Source: Micromonospora noduli
GTDB lineage: Bacteria > Actinomycetota > Actinomycetes > Mycobacteriales > Micromonosporaceae
DNA: 64,000 bases
Direction: 5' to 3'
Assembly: GCF_003264365.1 (NCBI RefSeq)
Contig: NZ_PYAK01000009.1
Coordinates: 62,001 to 126,000 of the forward strand
Positions 26,362 to 54,013 of this stretch are shown in pieces. The position numbers were made by a program, and so were the translations under genes. The notes under the pieces are model-generated. The model had not been told where the DNA came from. It saw nothing but the letters and a program-made list of their open reading frames with translations, and made no database searches. Positions within the stretch are counted from its first letter, which is position 1; the number at the start of each line of letters is the position of its first letter.

Positions 26362-26383
26362 CCTGCGGCTCTCACGCCGCAGG
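26362..26383. terminator. Small second hairpin
   Basis: CCTGCGGC and GCCGCAGG (8-bp stem, 6-base loop TCTCAC), 90 bases beyond the main terminator. It could be a back-up terminator or an mRNA structure. Apart from it and a weak frame at 26592, the 625 bases between the two replication-relaxation genes show nothing recognisable. Confidence 0.4.
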
Positions 26384-28236: not shown

Positions 28237-28938
28237 ATGGCGCAGCGCAAGGCGGTAGTCCTCCTGAGCGGCGGCTTGGACTCGGCGACGGTGCTGGCGA
28301 TCGCCCGGAACGAAGGGTACGAGACCTTCGCGCTGAGCTTCAGGTACGGACAACGCCACACGGTCGAGTTGCAGGCGGCAGAGCGCGTCGCCGCCGCACT
28401 GGGAGCGACCAAGCATGTGGTAGCCGACATTGACCTGCGGGTCTTCGGTGGATCGGCGCTCACCGACGCGTCGATCGCGGTACCGCATCACGACAGCGTT
28501 GACGACCTCTCGGCCGATGACATTCCCGTCACCTATGTCCCAGCACGCAACACGATCTTCTTGTCGTTCGCCCTGGCATGGGCCGAGACGCTTGACGCGT
28601 CGGACGTTTTCATTGGGGTCAGCGCACTCGACTACAGCGGCTACCCGGACTGCCGCCCGGAGTACATCAAGGCCTACGAGGAGATGGCGAACCTGGCTAC
28701 TAGGGCTGGGGTCGAGGGCCGCCAGAGACTGAAGATCCACACTCCTCTGATTCAGTTGACCAAGGCAGACACCATCCGGCGAGGCCTCGAACTAAATGTG
28801 GACTACGCCCTCACCCACAGTTGCTACGACCCGGTCGACGACCGCGCCTGCGGCACGTGCGACTCGTGCCTCCTCCGCAACCGCGGCTTTGCCGAGCTGG
28901 GAATGACCGATCCGGCTTTGACGACGTCACAGAGCTGA
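28237..28938 (+). CDS. queC: 7-cyano-7-deazaguanine (preQ0) synthase QueC
   Basis: A 233-residue ATP-pyrophosphatase that turns 7-carboxy-7-deazaguanine into preQ0 with ammonia and ATP. The PP-loop SGGLDS is at residues 11-16, FRYGQRH follows, and the zinc site near the C-terminus is C196, C205, C208 and C211 ([16 protein letters not shown]). Length is normal for the family. Start 28237 is chosen from the conserved N-terminus; the frame extends upstream without gene character. It is the first gene of the dpd island. In this setting it supplies the base for DNA modification rather than (or in addition to) tRNA queuosine. Confidence 0.96.
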
Positions 28939-28946
28939 ACAGGGCT

Positions 28947-29585
28947 ATGTACAAGATCAAGGAGATCTTTTACACCCTGCAGGGTGAAGGCAGCCACGCT
29001 GGTCGACCCGCAGTCTTCTGCCGGTTCGCGTCCTGCAACCTGTGGACCGGACGGGAGACCGACCGGCACCGCGCGATCTGCCAGTTCTGTGACACCGATT
29101 TCGTCGGCACTGACGGGCCTGGCGGGGGCCGTTTCGCCAGCGCCGCGGACCTCGCGATAGCGGTGGCCAAGACATGGCAGGGCCTGCCGCACTCCCGTAG
29201 CAAGCCCTACGTGGTGTGCACCGGCGGGGAGCCGTTGCTGCAACTCGACGATGACGCCGTGGCGGCGCTGCACGCCGAGGGCTTCGAGGTTGCGGTGGAA
29301 ACTAACGGCACCAAACCGGCGCCCGCTGGCCTCGACTGGATCTGTGTCAGTCCCAAGGCCGGCGCCGATCTGGTGTTGACCGCTGGCGATGAACTGAAGC
29401 TCGTCTATCCCCAGCCCGCCGCGATGCCTGAGCTTTTCGAGGACCTCGCGTTCACGTTCATGCGGTTGCAGCCGATGGACGGCCCAGAGCAGGAGGCCAA
29501 CACCCGCGCGGCGGTGGCCTACTGCCTGGCTCACCCGCAGTGGCAACTGAGCCTGCAGACCCACAAGTACTTAGGAATAGCCTGA
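28947..29585 (+). CDS. queE: 7-carboxy-7-deazaguanine synthase QueE
   Basis: A 212-residue radical-SAM enzyme that contracts 6-carboxytetrahydropterin to CDG. The cluster cysteines are C30, C45 and C48 with 14 residues between the first two, the QueE-specific CX14CX2C variant. The N-terminal [17 protein letters not shown] and the later [11 protein letters not shown] are family hallmarks. It starts 8 bases after queC and its stop shares one base with the queD start. The longer frame to 28821 is a shadow of queC. Confidence 0.96.
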
Positions 29586-29941
29586 TGGAGATTTACCGCG
29601 AGTTCACCTTCGAGGCCGCCCACCGGCTTCCTCGCGTGCCCGACGGGCACAAGTGTGCCCGCCTCCACGGCCACTCCTACAACGTGCAGGTACACGTCCG
29701 CGGGGACGTCGATCCGGCGACGGGCTGGGTGATGGACTTCGCCGAGATCAAGAAGGCGTTCCGCCCACTGCACGACCAACTCGACCACTACTACCTCAAC
29801 GATGTCCCCGGGTTGGACAACCCCACCAGCGAAAACCTTGCACGCTGGATCTGGGAACGACTCATCGATCAACTGCCGCTGTCAGAGATCCTCGTCCGGG
29901 AAACCTGCACGTCAGGCTGCGTCTACCGAGGCGACGCATGA
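29585..29941 (+). CDS. queD: 6-carboxy-5,6,7,8-tetrahydropterin synthase QueD
   Basis: A 118-residue protein of the 6-pyruvoyl-tetrahydropterin synthase fold, converting dihydroneopterin triphosphate to CPH4. The zinc ligands His13, His28 and His30 and the catalytic Cys24 are seen in [20 protein letters not shown], then H. The late [13 protein letters not shown] and [11 protein letters not shown] complete the active site. Its ATG overlaps the queE stop (TGATG), and folE2 begins before its own stop, so the biosynthetic genes are translationally coupled. Confidence 0.95.
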
Positions 29942-30777
29942 CGATCAGTGAGATCAGGGGCGACAGCTTGCAAGACGTTCAGGCCCTGCCGGACACTCGG
30001 GGCATCGCCCTCGACGAGGTCGGTGTCGAGGGCCTTCGCTACCCCCTGCTCATCTCCGACGCGCGTGGCAACAAACGCGAGACCGTCGCGACAGTCACCA
30101 TGTCGGTGAGCCTCGCCGACCACGTCAAAGGCGCCCACCTGAGCCGCTTCGTCGACGTGCTGCACACCTGGCGCGACCGACTCAGCAGCCAAGCCGTCAC
30201 CTTGATGGCCGACGACCTGCGCCAACGCATGGGCTGTGCCACCGCCCGCGTCGCTCTCACCTTCCCGTACTTCCTGGAACGCCTCGCCCCAGTCACCGGC
30301 ATCGCCTCGTTCATGGACTACACCTGCACCCTGACCGCCGCCGCCAGCGACCGTGGGGACGAGGTGGTGCTCGCCGTGAAGGTGCCGGTCACCAGCGTGT
30401 GCCCGTGCAGCAAAGCGATCAGCGACCGCGGCGCCCACAACCAACGCGGCTGGGTCACCATCGACGCCCGCCCACACACCCCCGCCACCGGCCTGTGGTT
30501 CGACCACCTCATCGACATCGCCGAGGCAGCTGGATCATCGCCGGTGTACGCGCTACTCAAACGTCCGGACGAACGCCACGTGACCATGGCCGGCTACGAC
30601 AACCCCGTCTTCGTTGAGGACATGATCCGCACCGTTGCCGGGGCACTGGACCACGACGTCCGCATCGCCGAGTACCGGATCCGCGTGGTCAACGACGAAA
30701 GCATCCACAACCACGCCGCCTACGCGCAGATCCCCTGGACGCTGACCGCAACGACTCGGGACTCCACCGATGGCTAG
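29938..30777 (+). CDS. folE2: GTP cyclohydrolase FolE2 (type IB)
   Basis: A 279-residue enzyme that opens the deazaguanine pathway by converting GTP to dihydroneopterin triphosphate. The active-site block [20 protein letters not shown], with C155, C157 and His167, is the GCYH-IB signature. The metal flexibility of this class (zinc or manganese) would keep the pathway running under zinc limitation. Having its own cyclohydrolase makes the island self-sufficient for preQ0 from GTP. It overlaps queD and the next gene by 4-8 bases. Confidence 0.95.
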
Positions 30778-31729
30778 CAGCGGTCACTCCGGCCCGGCCA
30801 ACGTGCACGTTGTGGTCACCTGCAGCAACCGGAAACGACACACAGTGCCAGACCGGTTACGTGTGGGTAACCTCCATGAAAGCAGTCCAGGTCAGCGGTT
30901 CGCCACCTGGACAGACCGACTGTTGACCAGTTCTGCCAGCAGGTTCCCTGCCGTTGATCTGTACGCCGGTGAGCATTGGCAGATTGCCCGGACCCTGCCC
31001 GACCAGATCGCACCGCGGGCCGCGACGTTATGGGTCTGCTCAGCAGGCTACGGGCTCATCGCCGCATCGGCGGCGATCCGACCGTATGCGGCAACGTTCG
31101 CCTCGGGCGGGGTCGATTCGGTCGGTGAGGATAAATCCGCCGCCCGCGACTGGTGGACAAGGCTGACCGAGTGGCCTGGCCCTGACGCAGACCAACCGCG
31201 GTCATTCGCGGACCTAGCCCGTCGTGATCCACACGCCACGATCATCGCGGTGCTCTCTGACGCCTACCAGCGAGCCTGCGCCACGGACGTCACCGTTGCG
31301 GCCAGTCTGTTGCACGACAACCAGCAACTATCCGTTGTCGGGCCATCCACTAATGACCTTGAAGACCTCGTCGTACCGGTGACCGCCAGGCTGCAACCTC
31401 ACCTCGGCGGCAGCCTGCTATCGCTCAACGCCCGCGTCGCAGCGTTCCTGCTGCGCTCGTCGGTCGATGACGATCACGACCTACGGCGCGAACGACTGCG
31501 CGAGCGTGTGGAACAGACAACGCAAGCAACGCCGGTTCCCGCAACTCGCACCGCTGGACAGCGTCTTACCGACGAAGAGGTGCGCGCCTTCATCCGTGGG
31601 CATGCGGGCGAACGGGCAACCACCGCGACGGGCTTGCTGCGACGCCTTCGCCTGTCAGGACGGTCATGTGAGCAGGCCCGCTTCGGGCAACTCTTCGCCG
31701 AGGTAATGGCATGGAGGGCGCGCCCCTGA
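30770..31729 (+). CDS. CSxxK-motif protein of the dpd island (DUF6884-like; DpdC candidate)
   Basis: A 319-residue protein. Near the N-terminus it has VHVVVTCSNRKRHTVP, later AVDLYAGEHWQIARTL and LWVCSAGYGLIAASAAIRPY, then AATF. A C-S-x-x-K start, a DLY-x-G segment and an SAxYGL...PY block resemble DUF6884/YaaA-like and archaeosine-synthase C-terminal folds. A helical tail of about 100 residues follows. In the known system dpdC is needed to convert dPreQ0 into the 7-amido form (dADG). This gene sits between folE2 and dpdB-dpdA, so it is the best candidate for a second modification step, but the equation with DpdC is inference. Both ends overlap neighbours. Confidence 0.55.
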   Translation: MASSGHSGPANVHVVVTCSNRKRHTVPDRLRVGNLHESSPGQRFATWTDRLLTSSASRFPAVDLYAGEHWQIARTLPDQIAPRAATLWVCSAGYGLIAASAAIRPYAATFASGGVDSVGEDKSAARDWWTRLTEWPGPDADQPRSFADLARRDPHATIIAVLSDAYQRACATDVTVAASLLHDNQQLSVVGPSTNDLEDLVVPVTARLQPHLGGSLLSLNARVAAFLLRSSVDDDHDLRRERLRERVEQTTQATPVPATRTAGQRLTDEEVRAFIRGHAGERATTATGLLRRLRLSGRSCEQARFGQLFAEVMAWRARP

Positions 31730-32871
31730 TGCCTGCCTCACCGCCTCCCAACAGCATGGTCCGTCGGGCCTTGTGCATCGCGCAGAGCACCGAATATCCC
31801 CTCTATGTCTTCACCCTCCGGGCCGAGGAGATTTTGCAGGTCGCAGACATCTCCCGGGTCAGTCGTGACCATGCCGGCAAGCTCATCGGCTATCAACGCC
31901 CTGAGGTGCGCAAACATATCCAGGAGATCGTCGAGTACCTCAACAGCGACGCTGCGGTCTTCCCCAACCCGATCATCATGGCGTTGTCGTCGAGAGTGCA
32001 CTTCAAGAAGATCCGCGGCGACCGGCTCCCAGGAGATGAGCTCGGCATTACCGGCACGCTCACCATCCCCATGGCGGAAAACGGTCGGCCGAAACCCGCG
32101 TGGATCGTCGACGGGCAGCAACGCGCGGTGGCGCTGTCCCGCACGCGGCGCAAAGACTTCCCCGTCCCAATCACCGCGTTCGTCGCCGACGCCGTGAAGG
32201 TCCAACGCGATCAGTTCCTGCGCATCAACAACACCCGGCCGTTGCCACGCGGCTTGGTGACGGAGTTGCTCCCGGCGGTCGACAGCCCACTGCCGACGCG
32301 GCTGGCCATTCGCCGGGCTCCGTCGGAGCTATGCGACGTGCTCAACACCGACGAACGCTCACCGCTGCGTGGGATGATCAAACGGGCGTCGACGGACAAG
32401 TCGCAGACCGCTCTCGCGGTGATCACCGACACAGGGTTCGTCGAACTGATCAAAGAAAGTTTGACATCGGCCGGGTGCCTGTTCCCGTATCGGGACGTGG
32501 GCCGCAACGAGACCGACTTCGACGGCGTCCTGCACGCCCTCTACACCTACTGGGGTGCCGTGCGGGACACCTTCCCCGACGCCTGGGGGAAACCGGCCGC
32601 CAAGAGTCGGTTGATGCACGGCGCAGGGATACGCGCCATGGGTCACCTCATGGGCCGGGTGCTCGGCATCGTCGATCCCCGCGCAGCGGACGCGCCTCGC
32701 CTGATCCGCGAGCACCTTGCGTTGATCGCCCCGTACTGTCGCTGGACTTCGGGCACCTGGGACGAGCTCAACATGCGGTGGAACGAGGTCGAGAACACCC
32801 CCCGCGACATCCAGGCATTGTCCAACTACCTCATCCGGGTGCACCGCAACGCCCAGGCGGAGCAGCGATGA
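31729..32871 (+). CDS. dpdB: DpdB-like DGQHR-domain protein (first copy)
   Basis: A 380-residue ParB/DndB-like protein with IVDGQQR at residues 126-132, the variant of the DGQHR motif. It also has GYQRPEVRKHIQEIVEYL, INNTRPLPRGLVTELLP and FPDAWGKPAAKSRLMHGAGI. In Salmonella the corresponding protein is required with DpdA to place preQ0 in DNA and has ATPase character. It overlaps the CSxxK gene (TGATG) and dpdA (ATGA). A second, clearly related protein follows dpdA, so the island has two versions. This one lacks an obvious N-terminal extension. Confidence 0.88.
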   Translation: MPASPPPNSMVRRALCIAQSTEYPLYVFTLRAEEILQVADISRVSRDHAGKLIGYQRPEVRKHIQEIVEYLNSDAAVFPNPIIMALSSRVHFKKIRGDRLPGDELGITGTLTIPMAENGRPKPAWIVDGQQRAVALSRTRRKDFPVPITAFVADAVKVQRDQFLRINNTRPLPRGLVTELLPAVDSPLPTRLAIRRAPSELCDVLNTDERSPLRGMIKRASTDKSQTALAVITDTGFVELIKESLTSAGCLFPYRDVGRNETDFDGVLHALYTYWGAVRDTFPDAWGKPAAKSRLMHGAGIRAMGHLMGRVLGIVDPRAADAPRLIREHLALIAPYCRWTSGTWDELNMRWNEVENTPRDIQALSNYLIRVHRNAQAEQR

Positions 32872-34109
32872 AATTCTTCTTTCCTGACAGCCAGGACCAG
32901 GTCGATCCGAGCTTCGACTTCATCACCGAAGAACGGGACCCGTTCCGTGTCCGGCAACGCGACGACCTGTACGCGCACGAGGTCCTGACCCAAGCGCCGT
33001 TCGACGGGCTGCTGGTGTCCAAGGCCATCGTGGACGGTCTGGCCAGCGGCACCACGGGCAAGTACACCGGAGCACAACGCCACCGCCTCTATCGTGAAGG
33101 CGCCGCCAAGTTCTTCCGGCTCGACAACGGCCATACCCCTTTGGAGATCATGGGCGATTGCGGTGCCTTCTCCTACGTCGCCGAAGAATGGCCGCCGTAC
33201 AGCGTTGATGAAGTCATCGATTTCTACGACGGATGCGGCTTCAACTACGGCATCGCCGTCGACCACGTGATCTTTCAGTACGAGCCCGCTACGTCACGCG
33301 ACGATCCCAAGGCACAGGAATGGGTCCGCCGCCAGAAGATCACACTCGATTTGGCCCAGGAGTTCTGGGATCGGTGCGACGCCCGCAACGTCAGCTTCGC
33401 ACCTGTCGGCGTTGCCCAGGGCTGGAGCCCGCAGTCCTACGCGGACGCGATCGCGGAACTGCAGCGCATCGGCTACACCCGCATCGCGCTCGGCGGTATG
33501 GTGCCGCTGAAGACCAATGAAATCCTCGCCTGCCTACGAGCGATCGACCAGGTCCGAGAGCACTCCACCGAACTGCACCTTCTCGGTGTTAGCCGCGTCG
33601 ACGACGTGCCGACGTTCGTTAGCCACGGCGTCACCAGCTTCGACAGCACCTCACCGTTCCGCCAGGCATTCAAGGATGACCGGGACAACTACTACACCCC
33701 CACCCGCACCCACGTCGCCCTGCGCGTTCCGCAGGTGGACGGCAACGCGAAGCTCAAGGCCCGGATCCGCTCCGGCGAGATCGGCCAAGGCGAGGCGATG
33801 GCGCTCGAGCGGACCGCCCTCACCCTTCTGCGCGAGTACGACGCTGACAAGACTGACCTCGAGCCGGTGCTGGAGGCGCTGGTCGCCTACAGTGCGCTGT
33901 GGAACGGCGGCAAGTCCGACCGCAGCGAGCAGTACCGTGCGACGTTGGCAGCTCGGCCGTGGCGCGACTGTCGATGCGATCTCTGTGTCGCCGTCGGGAT
34001 TGAGATCGTCGTGTTTCGGGGCTCCGAGCGCAACAAACGGCGCGGATTCCACAACCTGTACGTGTTCGAACAGCGTCTCCGCGCACAACGAGGAAGGACA
34101 ACCGCGTGA
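32868..34109 (+). CDS. dpdA: DpdA, TGT-like DNA-guanine transglycosylase
   Basis: A 413-residue paralogue of tRNA-guanine transglycosylase that exchanges guanine in DNA for preQ0. Visible features: MGDCGAFSYV (residues 95-104, Asp97 equivalent to the base-binding/catalytic Asp), YGIAVDHVIF (Asp132, nucleophile position), LGGMVPLKTNEI (the GG-L-x-x-G substrate loop equivalent) and the C-terminal zinc site C368, C370, C373 and His395 (CRCDLC...GFHN). ATG at 32868 overlaps dpdB by 4 nt and has its own methionine-rich natural N-terminus; the frame reading through from 32100 is the shadow of dpdB. It is the defining enzyme of the system. Confidence 0.93.
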   Translation: MKFFFPDSQDQVDPSFDFITEERDPFRVRQRDDLYAHEVLTQAPFDGLLVSKAIVDGLASGTTGKYTGAQRHRLYREGAAKFFRLDNGHTPLEIMGDCGAFSYVAEEWPPYSVDEVIDFYDGCGFNYGIAVDHVIFQYEPATSRDDPKAQEWVRRQKITLDLAQEFWDRCDARNVSFAPVGVAQGWSPQSYADAIAELQRIGYTRIALGGMVPLKTNEILACLRAIDQVREHSTELHLLGVSRVDDVPTFVSHGVTSFDSTSPFRQAFKDDRDNYYTPTRTHVALRVPQVDGNAKLKARIRSGEIGQGEAMALERTALTLLREYDADKTDLEPVLEALVAYSALWNGGKSDRSEQYRATLAARPWRDCRCDLCVAVGIEIVVFRGSERNKRRGFHNLYVFEQRLRAQRGRTTA

Positions 34110-35251
34110 CCAAGACCCGGACCGAGGCGTCCGCTGACTCCGCCGTCACCCAGGAGTTGCGCCTGCCCGCCTTGGAGATTCAGCAGGGCCGCGGGCGCCT
34201 TCTCTACACCTTCGCCATGGACGGCAAGCTCGTACCCAAGATCGCTACAGTCTCCCGCATCCGCCGCGACGAGGACGCCCTGCTGCACGGCTACCAACGG
34301 CCCGAGGTCCTCGCCCATGTCGCGGCGATCCGCCGATACATAGAAACCGACGCCAGCCCCCTGCTCCCCAACGCCATCGTCATCGCGTTCGACGAACGGG
34401 TGCGCTTCGAGCCAGGCCAGACGGGATCCGACAGCCCTGGCTACGTGCGCAGCGGAACTTTGATCATCCCGATCACCGAAGGGCCTGATCACGACAGGCC
34501 CGGCTTCATTGTGGATGGCCAGCAGCGCAGCGCCGCCATCCGCGATGCCAGGGTCGATGCTTTCCCAGTGAGCATCAGCGCCTTCATCACGAACGAGACC
34601 GCAGATCAGCGCTCACAGTTCATCCTCGTCAACTCCACCAAGGCGCTGCCGAAGGGGCTCATCCACGAACTCCTGCCCGGGGCCTCGGGCGCGCTGCCAA
34701 CTCCGCTGCGGGTACGTCAACTGCCGGCAACCCTGCTCGAGGGGCTCAACTTCGACGCCCGGTCTCCACTCAACCGGATGATCCAGACCCCGACCAACCC
34801 GTCCGGCGTCATCAAGGACAACTCGGTCTTGAGGATGCTGGAGACCAGTTTGAGCGACGGCGCCCTCTACCGGTTCCGCAACGACGAGGCGCTGCCGACC
34901 ACCGGCTATATGTTGACCGTCTTGTTCAATTTCTGGACCGCTGTCAGCCAGGTCTTCCCCGACGCGTGGGGCAAGCCGCCCCGCAAGTCGCGCCTCATGC
35001 ACGGCGTCGGAATCATCAGTATGGGCTACCTCATGGACGCCATTAGCCATGCGCGTGAGGAGGGCGACGGGATCGTCGAGGTTGAGGAGTTCGCCGCCCA
35101 CCTCAAGTCGATCGCCGATGACTGCCGCTGGACCGACGGTGAGTGGGACTTCGGCAACGGCATCGTTCGCAGGTGGAACGACATCCAGAACACGCCTCGT
35201 GACATCAAGCGCGTCGCGGATTTCCTGCAGGTCAGGTACCGGAATAGGTAG
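34106..35251 (+). CDS. dpdB: DpdB-like DGQHR-domain protein (second copy)
   Basis: A 381-residue protein with FIVDGQQR at residues 134-141 and the same framework as the first copy: GYQRPEVLAHVAAIRRYI, NSTKALPKGLIHELLPG and FPDAWGKPPRKSRLMHGVGI. GTG at 34106 overlaps the dpdA stop. The two copies share these motifs but differ in most intervening residues, so this is an old duplication rather than a recent one. They may form a heteromer around DpdA or recognise different target sequences. It ends the modification operon; a 372-base gap follows. Confidence 0.88.
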   Translation: MTKTRTEASADSAVTQELRLPALEIQQGRGRLLYTFAMDGKLVPKIATVSRIRRDEDALLHGYQRPEVLAHVAAIRRYIETDASPLLPNAIVIAFDERVRFEPGQTGSDSPGYVRSGTLIIPITEGPDHDRPGFIVDGQQRSAAIRDARVDAFPVSISAFITNETADQRSQFILVNSTKALPKGLIHELLPGASGALPTPLRVRQLPATLLEGLNFDARSPLNRMIQTPTNPSGVIKDNSVLRMLETSLSDGALYRFRNDEALPTTGYMLTVLFNFWTAVSQVFPDAWGKPPRKSRLMHGVGIISMGYLMDAISHAREEGDGIVEVEEFAAHLKSIADDCRWTDGEWDFGNGIVRRWNDIQNTPRDIKRVADFLQVRYRNR

Positions 35252-35623
35252 TGAAGCATCGATTGCGCGCGGCGACTTTGGGTGTTGCGGTGGGCTGAGG
35301 CGGATTCGGGTCGGCCCTACGGTCACAGCCACGGCCGCCAGGCTCGGCCGACCGGACGGTGGTGGGAGAGCGTCGTCGTGACCCCTGAGGTCACCGGCGG
35401 CGCCGCACCGGGTCCGAACCGCGCTTGGCTGGGAAGCGGGAGGCGGCCTAGATGAGACCGTGAACCCATCTCAGGAGTTGGGTTGGTCTTTTGGGCTTTT
35501 CGGCTGATCATGTGCGCACCGCTGCTGCTGCCCCATGCCAGAGATAGTCGATACCCTGCGTTGGTGCGTTTAGGTGCCGATCCGTCCACAGGACGGCGCG
35601 CAGGGACGGGGACCAGTCCGATC
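35252..35623. promoter_or_regulatory. Gap between the modification and restriction arms
   Basis: The only substantial break in the island. No gene with a plausible start is seen. The helicase frame extends back to 35483 but the residues there are not family-like. A TTGG-rich, less GC-rich stretch near 35480-35510 could hold a promoter for the restriction arm, which would let the host make modification before restriction. I cannot point to definite -35/-10 boxes. Confidence 0.4.
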
Positions 35624-41450: not shown

Positions 41451-41451
41451 C

Positions 41452-45300: not shown

Positions 45301-45376
45301 AACTGGCGGTTCTGGTGAGTCGGCGGCACTACGGGTTCAAGAAGTTTTGCGGCAGTGGACAGAGGTGGGGCCATGA
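42344..45376 (+). CDS. dpdH: DpdH, AAA-type ATPase
   Basis: A 1010-residue protein with Walker A VTGESGTGKSHLVRW (81-88) near the N-terminus and a Walker B-like EIVLLIEDFVVL at about 305-316. A CVTCEFQETC segment at about 422-431 may bind metal. The remaining 550 residues are mostly helical. It fits DpdH, the large P-loop protein of the dpd restriction arm, probably a motor or regulator coupling target recognition to cleavage. It shares 8 bases with dpdG and 4 with dpdI. Confidence 0.85.
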   Translation: MAEFRQFLCWSPIEAATTISTEAVSPSPSVFFATHAPLRIRRRHPEAKTDDPGTAVTEEDVRRDFLGRDTPNGVLLMPVTGESGTGKSHLVRWVHELTPSTDKRVVIYLPKTSTSLRAVVRTLLDQPGVDSPELAQLRADVDRMSSELDVESLERRLINELSEAVAVADARPGQGRVLAGPGNLALLLLDPHVRDHLLQKGKLIPRLAASLLSDRRDGEDDRPTAFSITDLPLDIADVNKASDKARRLLSLITNRPELQTAAIDILTEQLPVAITAAWNMGGGRLQQAMLEIRRQYAAQGKEIVLLIEDFVVLQGVQRDLLDALIEAGVRSGKAELAPVRTLMAVTTGYFARLAETVLTRAKAATPYLYDLDAGFDTGEQGRSDITAFAGRYLNAARVGREALDNANIANGADVPNRCVTCEFQETCHSTFGASVDGHGLYPFNWPTLRRAIRARPAHNNPNSFNPRAVIGEVIRPVLVDHAHALRDGSFPDQRFSEDYRTPAGEDYMLGAVQREIEERDHADASRRKAFLEFWGDAPDQITNLDPAMHAAFGIGLLDLNDLASGPGQTTTRATEDTTSGRRKPASANAQELPRALAMMIDHVEEWQGRHSQLPQTTAAHLRGTIRQAVINRCMWTDPVVADPQSAELDRAWPSNSTVVSIEGAASERLPGTADAPIRFKRNPSNATFFRQILLASVGVAGNAAAIRRLHEIAEHHQPDLQRAVQRHRGFSNRELILGFRASLLGAALAGHAWPGMKDTELLNAALADGSGWERADGLSRTPQWNRLWEAHRSGRGELVARLRDSVGFTRGVRGNVRIVDGTRALPLVGEASQQWAWERPDKLPSWATKAVSGLNQFAVVADAQFADLQHTLEKVRALLPAGVSGAETVLAVDQALRAAVDEGLGPVDLPTFRSLLADVRQRDWKSIDRLERDIARVTAAEDDDSRFRAILATCAADRGADLAAIERFLVAGNAWLTERLDQARLKTGGSGESAALRVQEVLRQWTEVGP

Positions 45377-46047
45377 CAGCGATGTCTGTTCTAGACAAGG
45401 CGAGGGCGCTCACGGCTGAGGCGAACCGGCTACGCGAAGGGTCTGTCGCGGAAGACAACGCCAAGCGGGTTTTCACGCAGGCCGATGGCCTCGGCAGCGC
45501 GCTTGAGCAACTGCGCCGGTTGCTTGAAGCGGGTCGCGCTCTGCAGGAACAAGGCGCCGATGTGCCGGTGGGTCAGGTCGATGAGGGACGCGAGAGATTC
45601 GCGCAACTTGCCGCGGACGGACTGCCATCAGTTCGCGCCATCACCGCGGCCCGCCAGAAGGTAGAGGGCGTCCTTGAGCGGGTGCAGGCCACGCTGACAG
45701 GGGCGTGGCTGAGGTGGACCAGCGAGCGGTTGGCCGAACTCCCGATTCAACGTCTGGCAGTGTTGCCCGCTGCCGCCCAGCGCGACCAGCAGACATCGTT
45801 CACCGAACTGAAGAGACTTGGCAAGATCGAAGTGCCTCACGTACGGGAGATCTCCTCCTTCGTGACGACACATGCCGGCCTGAAGGAGTCGCTGAGCTAC
45901 CTGCGGGAACCCGAGCCGGAGCTTGAGGCGTTACTGTTTCGCCTTGGCCGACGGGTGTCACTCGATCGAGTCTCAGACGCAGAGATCGCGATGCTACGGG
46001 AGTACGGTCTGGCCGACCAGATTGAACTCCATAGGAGGGGTTTGTGA
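45373..46047 (+). CDS. dpdI: DpdI
   Basis: A 224-residue, largely helical and charged protein beginning MTAMSVLDKARALTAEANRL. Its heptad-like Leu spacing (ALEQLRRLLEAGRALQ, VEGVLERVQATL) suggests coiled coils. There is no catalytic motif. It overlaps dpdH and dpdJ by 4 nt on each side (ATGA junctions). By order and size it corresponds to dpdI, one of the genes needed for restriction in Salmonella. A structural or bridging role between the DpdH ATPase and the DpdJ helicase is plausible. Confidence 0.72.
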   Translation: MTAMSVLDKARALTAEANRLREGSVAEDNAKRVFTQADGLGSALEQLRRLLEAGRALQEQGADVPVGQVDEGRERFAQLAADGLPSVRAITAARQKVEGVLERVQATLTGAWLRWTSERLAELPIQRLAVLPAAAQRDQQTSFTELKRLGKIEVPHVREISSFVTTHAGLKESLSYLREPEPELEALLFRLGRRVSLDRVSDAEIAMLREYGLADQIELHRRGL

Positions 46048-49000
46048 CTCAGGGGCTCGACGGACGCACCCTGTCTGGCGTCCTCGATCATCTGGAGGAT
46101 CTCGAACTGCCTCTCCTGGTTTGGGGCGTGACCACGGGCACCCTCTCGCACGAGGAGGTGCTCGAGACGATTAATGAGCAACTTCTGCAGTCCCCGACCT
46201 CGGCAAACGTGGACCCCGACGACGTCCTCACGGCCCTCCTCGATGGCGCACTGCTGATGCGCATCCCGGCGACGTCACCGCCCCGCTACCGCACACGCAT
46301 GGGCGAGACCGTGCGTCTCACCACCCGACTGCGACAGCTATTCGGCCCCCGCGACCTCACGTCGCCCCCAGCGCGTTGGTGGGAGCAAGGCAAAACGCTC
46401 GTCGCCGATTACCGCCTCCACACAGCACCGCGTCGATACCCTGAGATCAACGTCCTCATCGAGGACGCCCTGCAGGAACTCGCCCTCACCGAGGCGTGGA
46501 CGGCCGGGCATGAGTCAACCGCGCGAGCGCTGCTCAGACATCCAACTATGGCGAGATTCCAGGTGGACGCGACGCGAGCGATCACCACGGCGCTGAATGC
46601 GCGCCAGAGCGCGGGTGTCATCGTCGGTGCTGGCACCGGCAGCGGAAAGACGCTGGGTTTCTACCTCCCCGCATTCGCCGCCATGGCTGCGCACTCGCGG
46701 ACGGGCGGAACCGGTGTGCATACGCTGGCTCTCTACCCTCGGATCGAACTGCTGCGTGACCAGTTGCGGGAGGCGGTCGCCACCTCATTGCGGGTGAATG
46801 GGGAGGCCGGCGCCGGGACGAGCCGCCGGCTCAGGATCGGAGTGTTGTACGGCGACACGCCGCACAACGCCCAGCGTCTACGCGCACAGACATCTCACCT
46901 GACCCGTGCGTGGCGCAGTCGCGGCGCCGATGTCGTGTGTCCCTACCTGTCGTGTCCCCAGTGCCGCCAGGAACTGATCTGGTCTCGCCAAGATCAGAAC
47001 GAGAACCGGGATCGCCTGCACTGCACTCAGGCCACCTGTGGGCTTGTCATCGACGATGTCGTTCTGACCCGTGACTCGCTACGCGACAATCCACCGGACC
47101 TTCTATTCACCACGACGGAGATGCTCAACCGCAACGCCACCGACCCTGGGCTCGGTCAACTCCTCGGCTGGCGCGGCCCACGCCGGCCGTCGCTGGTGCT
47201 CCTGGACGAGGCTCACACCTACACCGGCATGCACGGCGCCCAGGTGGGACTCGTACTCCGGCGATGGCGCCACGCCGTGCGAAACCCGGTGACCTTCGTC
47301 GGCCTGAGCGCCACCCTGCGTGACGCCGCTGCATTCTTCGCACAGCTCACAGGCCTGTCGGACGCGTCGGTGGAGTACGTCACGCCCCGGCCGCAAGACC
47401 TGGAGAACAAAGGCCGGGAGTACGCCATTGCTCTACGCGCCGACCCGGTCTCCGGCGCGAGCCAACTGTCGACGTCCATTCAGACCGCCATGCTGTACGG
47501 CCGAATCCTCGACCTTCCCGGCCGGGAGATGCTTTACGGCTCGCGCGGTTTCCTATTCACTGATGATCTAGACGTCACGAACCGTTTCTACGACGACCTG
47601 TGTGACGCCGAAGGAGGAGGCACTAGACGCGGACCTCGACGAGCCGGGCGAGTCTTGGCCGGGCTCCGGTCACCGGAAGCGTCGTTCCGGGCTGAACGCT
47701 TCATCGACGGTCAGTCGTGGGATCTGGTACGTCAGATTGGACGTGACCTAGACCCTCGCGCTCTGATGGGACAGTTAGCCGTAGGACGTACGTCATCGCA
47801 GGACGTCGGTGTGGACGATGATGCCGATCTCATCGTTGCAACGGCGTCGCTGGAGGTGGGCTACGACGACGACCGCGTGGGTCTCGTCCTTCAGCATAAG
47901 GCGCCACACGACGCGGCTGCCTTCATTCAACGCCGCGGTCGCGCCGGACGTCGCCGAGGAACCCGCCCCTGGACCGTCATCACCCTGTCGGACTACGGCC
48001 GCGACAGGCTGGCATACCAGGCCTACGACTCCCTGTTCTCGCCCGAGTTGACCGCGCGCCGCCTCCCGGTCCGCAACCGCTTCGTACTCAAAATCCAAGG
48101 CGCGCAGGCTCTGCTGGACTGGCTATCCACGACGCTACGGGACAACCGGATCGACCCACGCCGGCTGCTGTCCGCGCCACGCCCGACTGCCCGCCCGCCG
48201 TCTCCAGCACAGGGCCAGGCACTCGCCGATTTGCTGGAAAAACTCATCATCGACCCAACATTGCAGGACAGCCTGATCGTCCACCTGCGTCGCGCCCTGG
48301 ACATCAGCGCCGATGAGGCTCAGGCATTGCTCTGGGAACAGCCGCGTGCCCTCCTGCTCGGCGTGGTGCCCACTGCCCTGCGCCGGCTGCGGTCCGGGTG
48401 GCGACCCGTCGACCCGGACCCAGGCGCGCATCCCGGAAGCCTGCTACCCGAGTTCCTCACCACGGCCTTGTACGAGCCGCTGAACGTGCCGGAGGTCAAC
48501 TTCCGGCTGCCATTCGCAGAGGATTGGGAAGCCCTTCCCATCGAGCGGGCGCTCCGCGAGGCAGTGCCCGGACGCGTCAGCCGCCGCTATGGCTACCGCC
48601 GCAGCAATCACCGGACATGGCTGCCGCTGCCAGATGTCCAGGCCAACGGCGCTCTAGAGATCGACAGTTTCGTCGAGACCTATACGCCACAGGGCACCTG
48701 GTCACCGACGGGACACCAGCCGGTTCAGGTCTTCCGGCCCCACGTCGTCGCTCTGCAGCAGCCACCGGACGAGGTCGCCGATCGATCGCAAGGCATTCCG
48801 GTGTGGGCGTCTGAGATCCTTGAACCCAGCAGCGGCCTCTACATGGCGGACATCCCCAAGCCGTCCAACTGGACCGACCGCATCACCGCTGTTGGTTTCG
48901 CCACGAGCGCCGCCGGCAACCCGGCTGAGGTTCGCCGAATGACGCTCGGGGCCGAATGCGACACGACCTATGACCGCGGCACCGCAGGCACCGTCACCAG

Positions 49001-50507
49001 CAGCGTCCGCTACAGCTTGGACGGCCGGCCGGCCGCGCTTGGCTTCCGCCTAAACGTCGACGCAGTCCGGTTCGACCTCGCACCGCTTAACCTCACTCGG
49101 CCGACCGTCGCCGAACACTTGAAATCGCCAGAGTGGCGATCGCTGGCGTTCGCCACCGCCGTCGCGGAGGACCCGGCGCTCGACGGTGTAGCCAATCCAT
49201 TCCAGCGGAACTGGCTGACCACCGTGTATACGGCCGCATATGCCCTGGCCGCCACCCAGCCCAACAACGCGACCTCCGGCGAACGCCTTCACGCCCAATT
49301 GAGTCGTGGCGCCTGGCGTATCGACGTCCAACAGATCCTGCGGGCCCTCTACCGCGACGCCGGATCCGTCGCGACCGCCGCACCTGAGCGGCTCGTCGCC
49401 GGTCTGACTGAACTCAGCAACGACGCGCGGCTCACTGACTGCCTCGACCGCCACGCACGGCTGCTCTGGACCGATCAAGTCGTAAGCCTCACGGAAGACC
49501 TCGCCCAACGGACGTACCGCGAGACCGTGGCAGCCGCGATTCTGGCCGCTGCCCAACGCGCGTGCCCCGACGCTCAAGACCGCGACCTGATCGTCGACGT
49601 CGTTTCGCCGCCTGGGACCGGAGGCCCCGCCGCGGTCTGGCTGAGCGAAACATCGCTGGGCGGTATCGGAATCATCGAGCAACTGACGCACTACTATGCC
49701 GAGAATCCGCGCCGCTTTTGGAACCTCGTCGACAGCGCTTTAGGCCCCAGCGACCACGACTACATTCACAGTACCGTCGTGCAACTGCTCGACCATGTCG
49801 TGTCCCAGCCATCAGGGCCCGCCGCGCAGGCAATGTCCACGCTCCGTGACCCGCGCTCGGCCCATGCCGCTGAGAGCGCGCTGCAACAACTTCGATCAGC
49901 ATGGGCGAAACTCACCGGCCACCCACGCCAACAAGCCGTGGCAGCGCTCTCCACCCGCCTGCTAAGACCAGGAACCACCAACGCCACCGACGCCGCAGCG
50001 CTCGGACTCGTCCACGCCTGGGACGCCCTCCAGCAACGCCTCGGCTTCGAGGTCGAGGCAGCAGTGTTCGCATATCTCATCGGCAGCGGACAAGTCGCCG
50101 TGCCGAATGCAGGCAACACCAGCCTTACACCGGACCAGGTGTTCAGCTTGCTGTGGCCCCGGGGCAACAAGGCCCGAGTCCAACACCTGCAGCATTACCA
50201 GCCATACGCCCCCACGCCGATCCTCGATCGGCTCTTGGCGCAGGCAGCACACGACGAACGGCTGCCTGTGGTCAACGTCGACGACGTCGACTGGCTCGAC
50301 AACTACCGAACGGCAGTACGCGACCGCGGCGCCGTCGTGCTCGTCGCCCCGGCACAGCGGATGCGAGCCTTCAGTACAGCCCTCAGGACCGTGCCGGCGG
50401 TCGCCGTCGATCGCGACGTGCTGCGGGTCTACGGCGACGTTCGCACCATCACACGTGACGGCGACAATCTACGCGCGACGATCGAAGTTCGTGAGGCTAC
50501 ACAGTGA
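46044..50507 (+). CDS. dpdJ: DpdJ, large DEAH helicase
   Basis: A 1487-residue superfamily 2 helicase. Walker A IVGAGTGSGKTLGFYLP (195-203) and DEAH (388-391, VLLDEAHTYTGMHGAQ) are present. A zinc-ribbon insertion with Cys 299, 304, 307, 327 and 332 lies between them. SATLRD, VATASLEVGYDDDRVGLVLQ and AFIQRRGRAGRRRG (motif VI, about 632) complete the core. The C-terminal part (LSETSLGGIGIIEQLTHYYA) is reminiscent of DUF1998-type ends found in phage-defence helicases. AGGAGGGG lies just before the GTG. It should act with the DpdK nuclease-like protein encoded next. Confidence 0.9.
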   Translation: MTQGLDGRTLSGVLDHLEDLELPLLVWGVTTGTLSHEEVLETINEQLLQSPTSANVDPDDVLTALLDGALLMRIPATSPPRYRTRMGETVRLTTRLRQLFGPRDLTSPPARWWEQGKTLVADYRLHTAPRRYPEINVLIEDALQELALTEAWTAGHESTARALLRHPTMARFQVDATRAITTALNARQSAGVIVGAGTGSGKTLGFYLPAFAAMAAHSRTGGTGVHTLALYPRIELLRDQLREAVATSLRVNGEAGAGTSRRLRIGVLYGDTPHNAQRLRAQTSHLTRAWRSRGADVVCPYLSCPQCRQELIWSRQDQNENRDRLHCTQATCGLVIDDVVLTRDSLRDNPPDLLFTTTEMLNRNATDPGLGQLLGWRGPRRPSLVLLDEAHTYTGMHGAQVGLVLRRWRHAVRNPVTFVGLSATLRDAAAFFAQLTGLSDASVEYVTPRPQDLENKGREYAIALRADPVSGASQLSTSIQTAMLYGRILDLPGREMLYGSRGFLFTDDLDVTNRFYDDLCDAEGGGTRRGPRRAGRVLAGLRSPEASFRAERFIDGQSWDLVRQIGRDLDPRALMGQLAVGRTSSQDVGVDDDADLIVATASLEVGYDDDRVGLVLQHKAPHDAAAFIQRRGRAGRRRGTRPWTVITLSDYGRDRLAYQAYDSLFSPELTARRLPVRNRFVLKIQGAQALLDWLSTTLRDNRIDPRRLLSAPRPTARPPSPAQGQALADLLEKLIIDPTLQDSLIVHLRRALDISADEAQALLWEQPRALLLGVVPTALRRLRSGWRPVDPDPGAHPGSLLPEFLTTALYEPLNVPEVNFRLPFAEDWEALPIERALREAVPGRVSRRYGYRRSNHRTWLPLPDVQANGALEIDSFVETYTPQGTWSPTGHQPVQVFRPHVVALQQPPDEVADRSQGIPVWASEILEPSSGLYMADIPKPSNWTDRITAVGFATSAAGNPAEVRRMTLGAECDTTYDRGTAGTVTSSVRYSLDGRPAALGFRLNVDAVRFDLAPLNLTRPTVAEHLKSPEWRSLAFATAVAEDPALDGVANPFQRNWLTTVYTAAYALAATQPNNATSGERLHAQLSRGAWRIDVQQILRALYRDAGSVATAAPERLVAGLTELSNDARLTDCLDRHARLLWTDQVVSLTEDLAQRTYRETVAAAILAAAQRACPDAQDRDLIVDVVSPPGTGGPAAVWLSETSLGGIGIIEQLTHYYAENPRRFWNLVDSALGPSDHDYIHSTVVQLLDHVVSQPSGPAAQAMSTLRDPRSAHAAESALQQLRSAWAKLTGHPRQQAVAALSTRLLRPGTTNATDAAALGLVHAWDALQQRLGFEVEAAVFAYLIGSGQVAVPNAGNTSLTPDQVFSLLWPRGNKARVQHLQHYQPYAPTPILDRLLAQAAHDERLPVVNVDDVDWLDNYRTAVRDRGAVVLVAPAQRMRAFSTALRTVPAVAVDRDVLRVYGDVRTITRDGDNLRATIEVREATQ

Positions 50508-51022
50508 CGTTGGAACGAGTGGTCCGGACCGGCCGGGCGACCGGCCTTCGCATCGACACAGTGCTGGCAACCGTGCTCACCGCTGAACTGGTGGCGCCGA
50601 GCAGCCAACTCTGGCTCGTGTCTCCCTGGATCAGCGACGTACCGGCCATCGACAACACCAGCGGCAGCTTCGACAGCGTGTTCGTCGACCCCTCGAACCG
50701 GATGTACACCCTCTCCGAAGTCCTATCCCTACTTACCTACAACCAGGCCCGGGTGACAGTCGTCTCCCGTCCCGACCGGCACAACTCGACGTTCTTGGAC
50801 CGCCTTCGCCGCAGCGCCGACGGCGAGAACCTGCAGATCAAGCAACACGAAGACGTACATGAGAAGACTTTCTGCGGAGACGATTGGCTCCTCACGGGGT
50901 CCATGAACCTCACCCTTCGCGGCATGCAGATCAACGACGAAGCCGTCACGTACAAGGTGAGCAGTGAAACTGCCGCTACCGCCCGCCTCGACTTCCGGCA
51001 CCGTTTTGGAGGACTCGAATGA
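50504..51022 (+). CDS. dpdK: DpdK, phospholipase-D-fold nuclease-like protein
   Basis: A 172-residue protein with one HxK motif, HEKTF (His119, Lys121), followed by LLTGSMNLTLRGM (Gly132, Ser133, Asn135). This is the HKD...GSxNxT pattern of PLD-family nucleases; two copies would form one active site by dimerising. LWLVSPWIS near the N-terminus is also typical. It is the only clear nuclease candidate in the island, so it probably cuts unmodified DNA. GTG at 50504 overlaps the dpdJ stop and its own end overlaps the next gene. Confidence 0.88.
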   Translation: MTLERVVRTGRATGLRIDTVLATVLTAELVAPSSQLWLVSPWISDVPAIDNTSGSFDSVFVDPSNRMYTLSEVLSLLTYNQARVTVVSRPDRHNSTFLDRLRRSADGENLQIKQHEDVHEKTFCGDDWLLTGSMNLTLRGMQINDEAVTYKVSSETAATARLDFRHRFGGLE

Positions 51023-53016
51023 CCGGGCGCCGCACCGAGAGCAGCTACGCCATTCGGGCGGACCGGCTCATCGAAGCGTTCTTCGGTCCAGCAAATCCTG
51101 TGTGGCCGGACCGCGATCCGGGCTCGCCTGTCGGACGCCGCCTCGTTCCTTACCTCCAAGTCCTTCATGAGGCATCTGACGTCCCCATCATCCTGCCGCG
51201 CCAGGACCCCGAGACCCGGCAATGGGTGGCATACGTCATCCCCCACGATGAACGACATGCGGCGACGGTTGGTGAACTGCTCCAGGCGTTCATCGGCACC
51301 AGCTTCGCCAGATTTCACGGCCTGCCCGCACGCCTCAACCCGAATGATCCGATAGATCGGGCTGTCCTTGAGTTCGCCGGCCACAGTTCAATCTTCGTCA
51401 TCGCGAGCCCACGCTCGAAAGAGAAAGACATGTGGGACGCCGTACGGCTACTCCAGCAAGCCATACGAGCACGCCCACGACGGTCCTGGCATACGCCGAC
51501 TCCCGTCGGCCGGCTGCTCAGCCAGTTTGACGTTGCCATGGCCGCAGGCGACAACTCCGCCTCAGCATCGATCCTCGATCAACTCTCGGCCACCGGCGGG
51601 CTCAGCGCCACAAACGTCGCTCACCTGCGCATCAAGCGCCTATCCCGTCTCGGCCGGAACAGCGAACTGCTCCGGCTCGCAGAACTGCCCGATGTCGCCA
51701 TCACGCACCCACCCATCCCTGTGCGCGACGCCATCCTCGCAGCGATCTTTGCCACCGCACTGGCGGAACCCCTAGCAAACGGCGACCTCGACCTTGCGCG
51801 GACCCGCCTCATCGAGGCCGGAACTCTGGTCCCCGCCCTTATGAACGGCGAACTTTCCGAACTGAGCCCTGAAGCGCTCACTGTCCTCGCGCTAGCTGCA
51901 ATCGTCGTAAACAGCACACCCATCTTAGACCTCCTACGCGACCAACCCGATGTCCTCGAAGCGGTCGAACGGTTGGCACCTGAACTGGCCGCGAAATACC
52001 GCAACACCCGCCCCGAACCGCATGGGGGAGGCAATGTCCCAGAACCGACCGAACGCAGATCCAGCCCGCCGGCAGCAGCGCCAGCGTCATGGCTTCAGTT
52101 GGTACAAGCCGTCGCAGTCCGGTCACCCGTCACTGAGGTCCTTGCCGGCGAGCAGTGGCGCCAATGGTCACAAGCAGCCGAGCACGACGACCAGATCGCT
52201 GCCGTCCTCGGTCAACTCGACGATGCAGCGGCGGACCGAATTTGGTCTCTTGTTGGCCCATTCGTCGATTCGGACCGCTACCTGACCCCAGCGGCGAAAT
52301 CAGCACGTGAGTTCCTCGTTAACGCGCTCACCCATGACCGTTTCAGCCCTGGTGACCTGGCCGGCGTCGTCGCTCTCACAGAAATCGTCCTTCGGTCCGC
52401 ACCGGACGCCCCCGCATACGCACACCTCCTGGACGACCTGACGGCTGAAGCACCGCGATGGGCCGGCCCCGATCGTGCCCCAGTCGTCCTCGACCTCGTC
52501 GACCTCGTCGCACGGTCGGCGTGTCCAGACTCCGACGCCCGGCTTCGACTGGGTTACCGCCTACTTCGACCGCTGAGCGATCACAGCACCCGCCTCGACC
52601 CCGATCAGGCTACTTTTGCCGCTCAACTGAGTGCCGAAATCGCCGTTGAACTCCCGTGGCCTGAGCCCGAATCGAAATCATCAGCAGAGGCATGGTCGTT
52701 AGTGATGGCTCAGGATCTGCTCCTGTACTCACTGGACGAAAAGGTCCTCGGCCGGGTAGCCGCGACCTTCAATGCCGTCGCACCCCAGGTCAACGTCATC
52801 ACAAGCCATGATTACGTCGGCAGCACGCAACTAAGACAGTGGGCTCGGCGTGCCGACGTCGTGGTCATGGCCACACGCTGCGCGACTCACGCCGCGACTG
52901 GCTTCATCCGTGCGAACTGCCGGCCGGGAACACCTGTCCGTGAAGCTGATGGAAGTGGCTCGGCCTCCCTCCTGCGCGCCGCGACAGCAGCGCTGATGCG
53001 TCGGCAGCCGATTTGA
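51019..53016 (+). CDS. dpdD: DpdD candidate, last gene of the dpd island
   Basis: A 665-residue protein starting MTGRRTESSYAIRADRLIEA and then FFGP. It is mainly helical, with a TPR/HEAT-like centre (NVAHLRIKRLSRLGRNSELL). The C-terminal 90 residues read YVGSTQLRQWARRADVVVMA, then T, ATHAATGFIRANC and GSGSASLLRAA, a layout reminiscent of DUF2325-type domains (a His in the middle and a terminal G-S-x-S loop). All other dpd restriction genes are assigned, so by elimination and by position this is DpdD. That name is inference, not direct recognition. It overlaps dpdK by 4 nt and closes the operon. Confidence 0.6.
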   Translation: MTGRRTESSYAIRADRLIEAFFGPANPVWPDRDPGSPVGRRLVPYLQVLHEASDVPIILPRQDPETRQWVAYVIPHDERHAATVGELLQAFIGTSFARFHGLPARLNPNDPIDRAVLEFAGHSSIFVIASPRSKEKDMWDAVRLLQQAIRARPRRSWHTPTPVGRLLSQFDVAMAAGDNSASASILDQLSATGGLSATNVAHLRIKRLSRLGRNSELLRLAELPDVAITHPPIPVRDAILAAIFATALAEPLANGDLDLARTRLIEAGTLVPALMNGELSELSPEALTVLALAAIVVNSTPILDLLRDQPDVLEAVERLAPELAAKYRNTRPEPHGGGNVPEPTERRSSPPAAAPASWLQLVQAVAVRSPVTEVLAGEQWRQWSQAAEHDDQIAAVLGQLDDAAADRIWSLVGPFVDSDRYLTPAAKSAREFLVNALTHDRFSPGDLAGVVALTEIVLRSAPDAPAYAHLLDDLTAEAPRWAGPDRAPVVLDLVDLVARSACPDSDARLRLGYRLLRPLSDHSTRLDPDQATFAAQLSAEIAVELPWPEPESKSSAEAWSLVMAQDLLLYSLDEKVLGRVAATFNAVAPQVNVITSHDYVGSTQLRQWARRADVVVMATRCATHAATGFIRANCRPGTPVREADGSGSASLLRAATAALMRRQPI

Positions 53017-53956: not shown

Positions 53957-54013
53957 CACGCGACGGCCGGTTATGGCGGCGTTGCAGCGAGGATAGCGTG
54001 GTACGGCGGGTGT

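Follow-up and report, generated by a model that had tools for sequence, protein, structure and literature searches.

The question raised by this locus is whether positions 28237-53016 of the window, i.e. the whole stretch of 64,000 nucleotides of Micromonospora noduli DNA that was analysed, hold a complete 7-deazaguanine DNA modification-restriction (Dpd) island with its own preQ0 supply, and what in it goes beyond known systems. A sequence-only reading had proposed such an island. HMM searches recovered all genes it named, on the + strand and at the positions it had given them. The scores are far beyond chance, with 10 of the 12 Dpd open reading frames above the curated NCBIfam cut-offs. The observation of a complete, self-supplied Dpd island is confirmed, and a complete modification-restriction island in this Micromonospora strain is the best explanation, with a probability of about 0.9. 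One gene was missing from the earlier list, namely dpdC, which PADLOC places between folE2 and the first dpdB. The gene order is common to many relatives, and the island adds a further member to a known and widespread kind of Dpd system; the available part of PMC11888242 counts 2,335 unique Dpd islands, 333 of them from Actinomycetota. Beyond the known kind are an ancient DpdB pair and a restriction unit that varies independently of the synthesis unit.

The preQ0 supply is encoded by four genes:

28237..28938, + strand: queC, 7-cyano-7-deazaguanine (preQ0) synthase; TIGR00364 210.6 bits (cut-off 150), PF06508 259 bits, SGGLDS motif
28947..29585, + strand: queE, 7-carboxy-7-deazaguanine synthase, Cx14CxxC type; TIGR04508 348 bits (cut-off 240), C-x14-C-x2-C
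29585..29941, + strand: queD, 6-carboxytetrahydropterin synthase; TIGR03367 119 bits (cut-off 89), PF01242 135 bits
29938..30777, + strand: folE2, GTP cyclohydrolase IB; NF010200 256 bits (cut-off 215), PF02649 275 bits

Start codons were placed at 28237 (queC), 28947 (queE), 29585 (queD), 29938 (folE2) and 32868 (dpdA). The host genome backs the claim that the system does not rely on host queuosine synthesis: its single queC match lies inside the island and no tRNA TGT above the cut-off was found (the genome is rated 100% complete). Such a TGT was found in all 14 control genomes, and in 2 of 61 genomes of the host's genus. Any deazaguanine in host nucleic acids should therefore stem from the island. 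Since the host has a folE elsewhere, and folE2 was not detected in five Dpd-island genomes (G284, G253, G251, G274 and G115), folE2 is not indispensable.

Base exchange and the predicted final product depend on two genes:

32868..34109, + strand: dpdA, DNA-guanine transglycosylase; NF041059 599 bits (cut-off 200), PADLOC DpdA 611 bits
30770..31729, + strand: dpdC, predicted dPreQ0-to-dADG hydrolase; PADLOC PDLC02823 228 bits, PDLC02817 224 bits

In the PDB, DpdA matches best to 7ui4, a DNA-guanine transglycosylase (421 bits, E 2.9e-125). A role as tRNA TGT was rejected, as tRNA TGT chains in the PDB reach 18 bits and Pfam TGT 23.8 bits, below its cut-off of 26.3. The grouping of DpdA with tRNA TGT enzymes, named beforehand as evidence against the island, did not appear in NCBIfam, PADLOC or PDB searches, and the proposal is not refuted on this point. 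Residues D97, D132, D259, C368, C370, C373 and H395 are invariant among the 12 DpdAs compared. DpdC carries a CSNRK motif at residue 18 and matches Pfam DUF6884 and YaaA, both below cut-off; it gave no NCBIfam match and no significant PDB sequence match. The presence of dpdC narrows the predicted end product from 'dPreQ0 or dADG' to dADG. Judged from the genes, the strain would carry dADG in its DNA and attack unmodified DNA.

The restriction genes follow after a gap of about 0.2-0.4 kb between the end of dpdB2 at 35251 and dpdE:

35483..38875 (longest ORF), + strand: dpdE, SNF2/RapA-like helicase; NF041062 1086 bits (cut-off 500), GLGKT, DEAH; the profile match begins at residue 53 of this ORF
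38865..41450, + strand: dpdF, RecQ-like helicase; NF041063 820 bits (cut-off 550), PTGQGKT, DEAH
41437..42351, + strand: dpdG; NF041064 112 bits (cut-off 80)
42266..45376 (longest ORF), + strand: dpdH, AAA-type ATPase; NF041065 1086 bits (cut-off 450), GESGTGKS
45355..46047, + strand: dpdI by position, fast-evolving; place in gene order and a caveated profile match
46044..50507, + strand: dpdJ, YprA-family helicase (family name from the available part of PMC12458937); NF041067 1688 bits (cut-off 800), AGTGSGKT, DEAH
50504..51022, + strand: dpdK, phospholipase-D-type protein, likely nuclease; NF041068 198 bits (cut-off 100), PF13091 28.1 bits (cut-off 27), H119-x-K121-x4-D126
51019..53016, + strand: dpdD; NF041061 547 bits (cut-off 300), PADLOC 710 bits

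This gap is the exception to the otherwise correct statement that nearly all genes overlap, and it fits separate synthesis and restriction units. All seven of dpdD, E, F, G, H, J and K lie above their curated cut-offs, and the former 'DpdD candidate' is DpdD. Its predicted model (pLDDT 84.3) consists largely of helices, with an alpha/beta region at the C-terminus; against the PDB the best fold match has E 0.0097, none reaching 0.001. For DpdI, an open reading frame lies at the expected place, and it has no family model, giving no NCBIfam match (E up to 10) and no PADLOC match. A counterpart at this place, at 32-69% identity, was detected in 9 of the 19 genomes compared. The DpdI profile matches other position-I proteins at 95.9% with a diverse, hard-to-align set and at 0.2-39% in narrower comparisons.

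From these parts the following mechanism is proposed, with functions of dpdA-C, dpdD-K and the YprA and PLD parts as given in the available parts of PMC11888242, PMC12839542, PMC12707154 and PMC12458937. FolE2 (or host FolE), QueD, QueE and QueC would make preQ0, which DpdA with the DpdB ATPase(s) would swap for guanine in DNA. DpdC would then hydrolyse the nitrile to give dADG as the self mark. A separate unit of DpdE, F, G, H, I, J, K and D would detect DNA without this mark; its SNF2-, RecQ- and YprA-type motors would travel along unmarked DNA, which the unit would cut, DpdK being the likeliest nuclease. We infer this chemistry, the restriction and the nuclease role of DpdK. The evidence comes from one strain, and the island could be decayed or silent, leaving the DNA unmodified. 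We regard this as very improbable, since the ORFs are open across nearly the whole profiles, the motifs sought are all present, and M. alfalfae matches the DNA at 23622-44104 with 97.4% identity.

Within the island dpdA is flanked by two dpdB genes:

31711..32871, + strand: dpdB1, upstream DpdB paralogue; NF041060 415 bits (cut-off 300)
34106..35251, + strand: dpdB2, downstream DpdB; NF041060 476 bits (cut-off 300)

One dpdB stands on each side of dpdA in 72 of 80 named DpdA loci. For the alignment 191 of 194 rows were used, three broken or cut sequences (L109_dn, L132_dn and G112_up) having been dropped beforehand, and 85 hand-picked rows entered the tree. Upstream (39) and downstream (46) sequences part at a single branch with support 100 and length 1.35, with positions fixed across several phyla. 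DGQQR is kept in both kinds in the 191-row alignment, in which seven genomes count twice, as 7 of the 19 compared genomes double named loci (G275=L063, G115=L064, G284=L065, G064=L067, G146=L069, G052=L070, G073=L129). By these comparisons the two DpdBs are ancient paralogues, nearly fixed as a pair around DpdA, and both may act together in insertion. The predicted model of DpdB1 (pLDDT 79.7) ranks ParB-N domains first, not significantly (best E 0.037), and DpdB1 has no significant PDB sequence match. Sulfiredoxin stands lower among the non-significant structure matches of this model.

Instead of working in one machine, the DpdBs could be redundant with each other, or each could serve under different conditions. 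A downstream dpdB only is seen in 7 of the 80 named loci (at L104 the contig ends upstream, and absence of an upstream dpdB there cannot be judged), a single dpdB is annotated in an Enterobacter plasmid, and G055 has the upstream kind only and G068 the downstream kind only. However, recent redundant copies would group by genome, whereas the tree has one ancient, well-supported split with positions fixed in several phyla, and DGQQR is retained by both copies. We consider redundancy unlikely, if still a serious contender.

A division of labour, in which DpdB1 serves the DpdC step and DpdB2 the DpdA step, is a good deal less probable. It is favoured by partial correlations between pairwise identities, calculated on 83 rows (C-B1 0.68, A-B2 0.76, B1-A 0.19, B1-B2 0.01), and 55 dereplicated rows gave similar values (0.64, 0.76, 0.11 and 0.09, respectively). 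The 83 rows leave out three genomes in which genes are missing or split, G055, G068 and G112, as well as the doubles G115, G064, G275 and G073, and retain the doubles G284/L065, G146/L069 and G052/L070, which the 55 rows avoid. Furthermore, four loci (L084, L107, L108 and L135) join a window-like dpdC-dpdB1 to a Streptomyces-like dpdA-dpdB2. Without these four, however, C-B1 drops to 0.33, about the level of most other pairs, and A-B2 to 0.46; the correlation is therefore largely one exchange event, which weakens a DpdC-DpdB1 pairing. Adjacent genes are linked anyway, G055 carries dpdB1 with dpdC not detected, and dpdC is present in 7/7 loci having the downstream dpdB only.

The restriction unit varies independently of the conserved synthesis unit. 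Genomes G162 and G211 share 97% DNA up to the point where dpdB2 ends, and likewise in the right flank, while their restriction genes are about 36% alike and in opposite orientation. Among 18 islands (153 pairs, G055 and G068 left out) DpdJ falls into six groups at about 50% identity, with restriction units in either orientation. Repeat-driven flipping of the unit was rejected: at its borders in G162, G211, the window, G275 and G115 there were only exact matches of 8-10 bp, plus one 17-bp stretch (88%) in G275. A joint reading, somewhat short of even odds, is that the two ancient DpdBs and DpdA form one insertion machine in many islands, the restriction units being interchangeable effectors that read the mark. 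Being interchangeable, such units would have to recognise the mark directly, as opposed to a surface of the synthesis proteins that is specific to one partner.

Two genes lie on either side of the island:

20166..21629, - strand: tyrosine integrase left of the island; PF00589 64.6 bits
54008..54943, - strand: first conserved right-flank gene, at which the variable region ends sharply on its right

The integrase and part of the left flank are conserved in G271, which bears other cargo. The right flank is 94-95% identical in DNA from 53998-54016 on in G704, G271, G144, G705, G287 and G211. Attachment-site repeats around 54008 amounted to 13- and 14-bp matches only, and an ARAGORN scan of the window gave no tRNA. 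A side lead is a compact Dpd plus GIY-YIG system in G055 and G068. The GIY-YIG protein, which we read as holding two GIY-YIG motifs (Pfam shows one, below cut-off), has 7 full-length relatives among 300 family genomes, 2 of which adjoin dpd genes; the other 5 have no match to the que/dpd query proteins within 18 kb. In 394 class genomes there were weak matches only (E 1.6e-4 or worse).

The island is useful as a test bed. The second DpdB and the differing attack genes in near-identical relatives are worth testing: the pair opens a plain deletion test of the DpdB role, and the natural pair G162/G211 makes the target recognised by Dpd restriction testable. The DpdB1 clade merits its own name in annotation.

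Among known systems, phages Rosebush (Mycobacterium) and CAjan (E. coli) resemble the window in having DpdA plus FolE, QueD, QueE and QueC. According to the available part of PMC6884629, phage DpdA systems place dPreQ0 in DNA and, unlike the window, protect the phage and are not restriction systems; phage DpdAs do not cluster there with bacterial DpdA. BRIGADE and DISARM, as described in the available part of PMC12458937, share with the window a YprA-family helicase and usually a PLD-type nuclease, but their gene sets differ, the window helicase being DpdJ at 1688 bits. The Dpd island of Enterobacter cloacae plasmid pPOL9A, of the Salmonella Montevideo/Enterobacteriaceae kind, has dpdA, dpdB, dpdD, E, F, G, H, J and K annotated, proteins without a name where dpdC and dpdI would stand, and a DpdA 49% identical to that of the window. 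Synthesis and restriction units are separate in both. The plasmid has one annotated dpdB against two here, no que/folE annotated in 41 kb (its gene table is incomplete) against four preQ0 genes, and an inverted restriction unit against a co-directional one; this enterobacterial one-DpdB model does not show the two-DpdB layout. Other Actinomycetota relatives differ in folE2, orientation and restriction-unit type, whereas Micromonospora alfalfae MED01 (L062), at 97.4% DNA identity over 20.5 kb, has the same gene order as the window, without difference in the compared stretch from queC to dpdF.

By the genes found, the window encodes a Dpd system, with a probability of about 0.9. The island reads as follows.

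28237-53016, + strand: sixteen genes, in the order queC, queE, queD, folE2, dpdC, dpdB1, dpdA, dpdB2, dpdE, dpdF, dpdG, dpdH, gene at the dpdI position, dpdJ, dpdK, dpdD

The genome around the window comprises 7.2 Mb on 223 contigs, and window 23622-44104 matches Micromonospora alfalfae MED01 (locus L062) at 97.4% DNA identity, which makes the host a close relative of M. alfalfae within Micromonospora. Curated NCBIfam cut-offs were exceeded by all island genes except dpdC and the gene at the dpdI position. dpdC was matched by ten PADLOC DpdC models, with a top score of 228 bits. The Dpd island proposed by the sequence-only reading is borne out by this gene set, with dpdC, which it had missed, added to its list. 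The CSNRK motif is retained in DpdC, nucleotide-binding motifs in DpdE, DpdF, DpdH and DpdJ, and HxKx4D in DpdK; DEAH is found in DpdE, DpdF and DpdJ, not in DpdH.

The reading frame at the dpdI position matched no family model of NCBIfam or PADLOC. It is placed between dpdH and dpdJ, a place taken in an Enterobacter island by a protein with the annotation "hypothetical", and was detected by tblastn in 9 of 19 compared genomes (32-69% identity). A profile comparison between aligned sets of ten of these proteins and of eight other position-I proteins gave 95.9% probability, but the set of eight is very diverse and aligns poorly, and against one to three of its members the values were 0.2-39%. 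The frame is probably DpdI.

Grouping of DpdA with tRNA-guanine transglycosylases (TGT), the check proposed earlier, was run. DpdA sides with 7ui4, deposited as a DNA-guanine transglycosylase (421 bits over residues 1-405), versus 18 bits for tRNA TGT chains, and by sequence is a DNA enzyme. Residues D97 (GDCGAF), D132, D259, C368, C370, C373 and H395 are kept across twelve DpdAs; we take the aspartates to correspond to the TGT catalytic aspartates and the other four to the zinc ligands.

According to three papers, dpdA and dpdB insert preQ0, dpdC makes dADG and dpdD-K restrict (PMC11888242, PMC12839542, PMC12707154). The gene set predicts a working dADG-based modification-restriction system in the window, in which DpdA and DpdB would insert preQ0 in DNA, DpdC would convert it to dADG and DpdD-K would restrict. 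With its PLD motif DpdK is the likeliest candidate for the cutter; DpdJ belongs to the YprA-type helicases (PMC12458937).

No TGT over the cut-off was found in the host genome, with controls positive in 14/14 genomes; one is present in two of 61 genus genomes, a set that includes the host. The single queC match of the whole genome lies inside the island. Together with the missing TGT match, this suggests that preQ0 does not go into queuosine here, and it supports the earlier claim that preQ0 supply is independent of host queuosine synthesis. Since a host folE is present elsewhere in the genome and folE2 was not detected in the islands of five compared genomes (G284, G253, G251, G274 and G115), folE2 is not indispensable. 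The attachment of all four preQ0 genes, stressed in the sequence-only reading, is usual among close relatives, because 58 of 80 named DpdA loci have all four near dpdA and 69 have queC, queE and queD. These loci, the 80 best among 164 relatives, are biased to close kin, mostly Actinomycetota. The GATOR-GC preprint gives about 27% over all phyla for this feature (PMC11888242).

Two DpdBs, about 2.4 kb apart on either side of dpdA, were found in 18 of the 20 family genomes with DpdB over the cut-off; in G112 the upstream copy is split over two frames. Among the 80 named DpdA loci (the best 80 of 164), 72 have both, seven the downstream copy alone and one neither, upstream absence being unjudgeable in L104, where the contig ends upstream. 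The same order occurs on two alphaproteobacterial plasmids (L143, L144), which also carry queE, queD, queC and a gene of the VUT family whose annotation names queuosine salvage. A quick tree was built from 85 selected DpdBs; one of its branches (SH-aLRT 100, length 1.35) separates 39 upstream from 46 downstream copies, and the upstream side spans Actinomycetota, Planctomycetota, Acidobacteriota, Myxococcota and Pseudomonadota. The single Enterobacter DpdB groups with the downstream copies, a placement that the tool warns is unsure for so long a row. GYQR and DGQQR columns are 97-100% conserved in both kinds (92 and 99 rows), and the kinds differ at fixed positions, e.g. R19/P21 and R171/L174. 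The tree split and these positions argue that DpdB1 and DpdB2 are paralogues of ancient origin, each keeping to its place, and that DpdB1 should be regarded as a separate subfamily. That both serve DpdA within one complex is our best guess, at about even odds. The seen parts of the GATOR-GC preprint count 801 extra dpdB copies and hold no analysis of them (PMC11888242); in the literature, covered in part, no treatment of two DpdB lineages was found, so novelty cannot be claimed.

In L084, L107, L108 and L135, dpdC-dpdB1 like that of the window's clade is joined to Streptomyces-type dpdA-dpdB2, which points to an exchange point between dpdB1 and dpdA. In Occallatibacter savannae, dpdB2 and folE2 are followed downstream by a protein of 566 aa (L126:13472-15172) that, by its N-terminus, seems to be a further DGQHR-type protein. 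Actinomadura sp. J1-007 (L117, 8205-11239) has queC, queE, queD and dpdA; dpdB, dpdC and restriction genes were not detected within its 21-kb stretch.

Restriction units vary independently of the synthesis unit. In 153 pairs from 18 islands, the identity of dpdF/dpdJ/dpdK is not predicted by how similar dpdB1-dpdA-dpdB2 are (Spearman 0.06, p 0.45); among the 18 pairs with synthesis identity above 86%, restriction genes are less than 40% alike in 13 and at least 70% in five. DpdJ forms six groups at about 50% identity among 18 islands. Mixed-up DpdJ paralogues are ruled out as the cause, since DpdJ exceeded the cut-off once each in 13 of 17 searched genomes; G055, G068, G271 and G287 had none over it. 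Genomes G162 and G211 share a 7,101-bp stretch at 97.1% DNA identity that stops no more than 2 bp from the dpdB2 end, beyond which their restriction units run in opposite directions with a sole common stretch of 301 bp at 70%. Their right flanks are 93.5% identical and their left flanks show no likeness within the 6.4 kb compared, so it is the right flank that indicates a common site. The window has this flank too, 92% identical to G162 over 54013-58106 and 94% identical to G211 over 54008-56689. Of the 80 named DpdA loci, 40 have the restriction unit downstream in inverted orientation and 21 have it downstream and co-directional; it lies upstream in seven and was not seen in 12, four of these on short contigs.

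The right flank, starting between 53998 and 54016, was found at 94-95% in 6 of 60 other genus genomes searched. To its left, G211 has its own restriction unit, G287 an integrase 82% like that of the window about 16 kb away, and G271, G144, G704 and G705 nothing window-like in the stretch first compared. G271, in which neither DpdJ over the cut-off nor a DpdB match was found, shares two further pieces with the window, 13349-18118 and 19737-21719, including the integrase, at 85-89%. Some 29 kb, for the most part other DNA, separate these pieces from the right flank and include three short stretches 70-77% alike to window 21906-27450. The island thus sits in an integrase-linked variable region. 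The tyrosine integrase (20166-21629) and the sharp conserved right border at 54008 bound this region, with other cargo in G271 and G287; no attachment repeat was found. On the - strand, 61604-63716 holds a CBASS-like pair, an oligonucleotide cyclase (PADLOC 405 bits) and a patatin-type phospholipase effector (347 bits), which with the dpd genes and integrase makes a defence region. This pair is separated from a gene whose DUF3800 match is sub-threshold by a 1050-aa protein (58131-61283, - strand), with a sole, weak PADLOC match (16.7 bits) and no Pfam match at E 0.001; its N-terminal part looks like a restriction-endonuclease domain.

DpdB exceeded the cut-off in 20 of 300 genomes drawn from the family and DpdA in 3 of 394 of the class, the window's own included, a patchy distribution as expected for a mobile island. 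Compact islands of queC, queE, queD, dpdA and one dpdB occur in G068 and G055, where dpdC and restriction genes were not detected nearby. Directly after them stand homologous proteins, 59% alike (L036:8001-8870, - strand; L034:8940-9938, + strand), each apparently with two GIY-YIG motifs; a minimal dPreQ0 and endonuclease system is possible. Five other full-length relatives of the protein stand without dpd genes. Near the G055 genes (L034 3037-15982) are McrC-like, BrxC/D-like, PglZ-domain and DEAD-helicase genes.

Through two comparative findings, the DpdB pair and the variable restriction units, it becomes testable what DpdB does and what Dpd restriction targets; the island itself is an ordinary member of a known, widespread kind.
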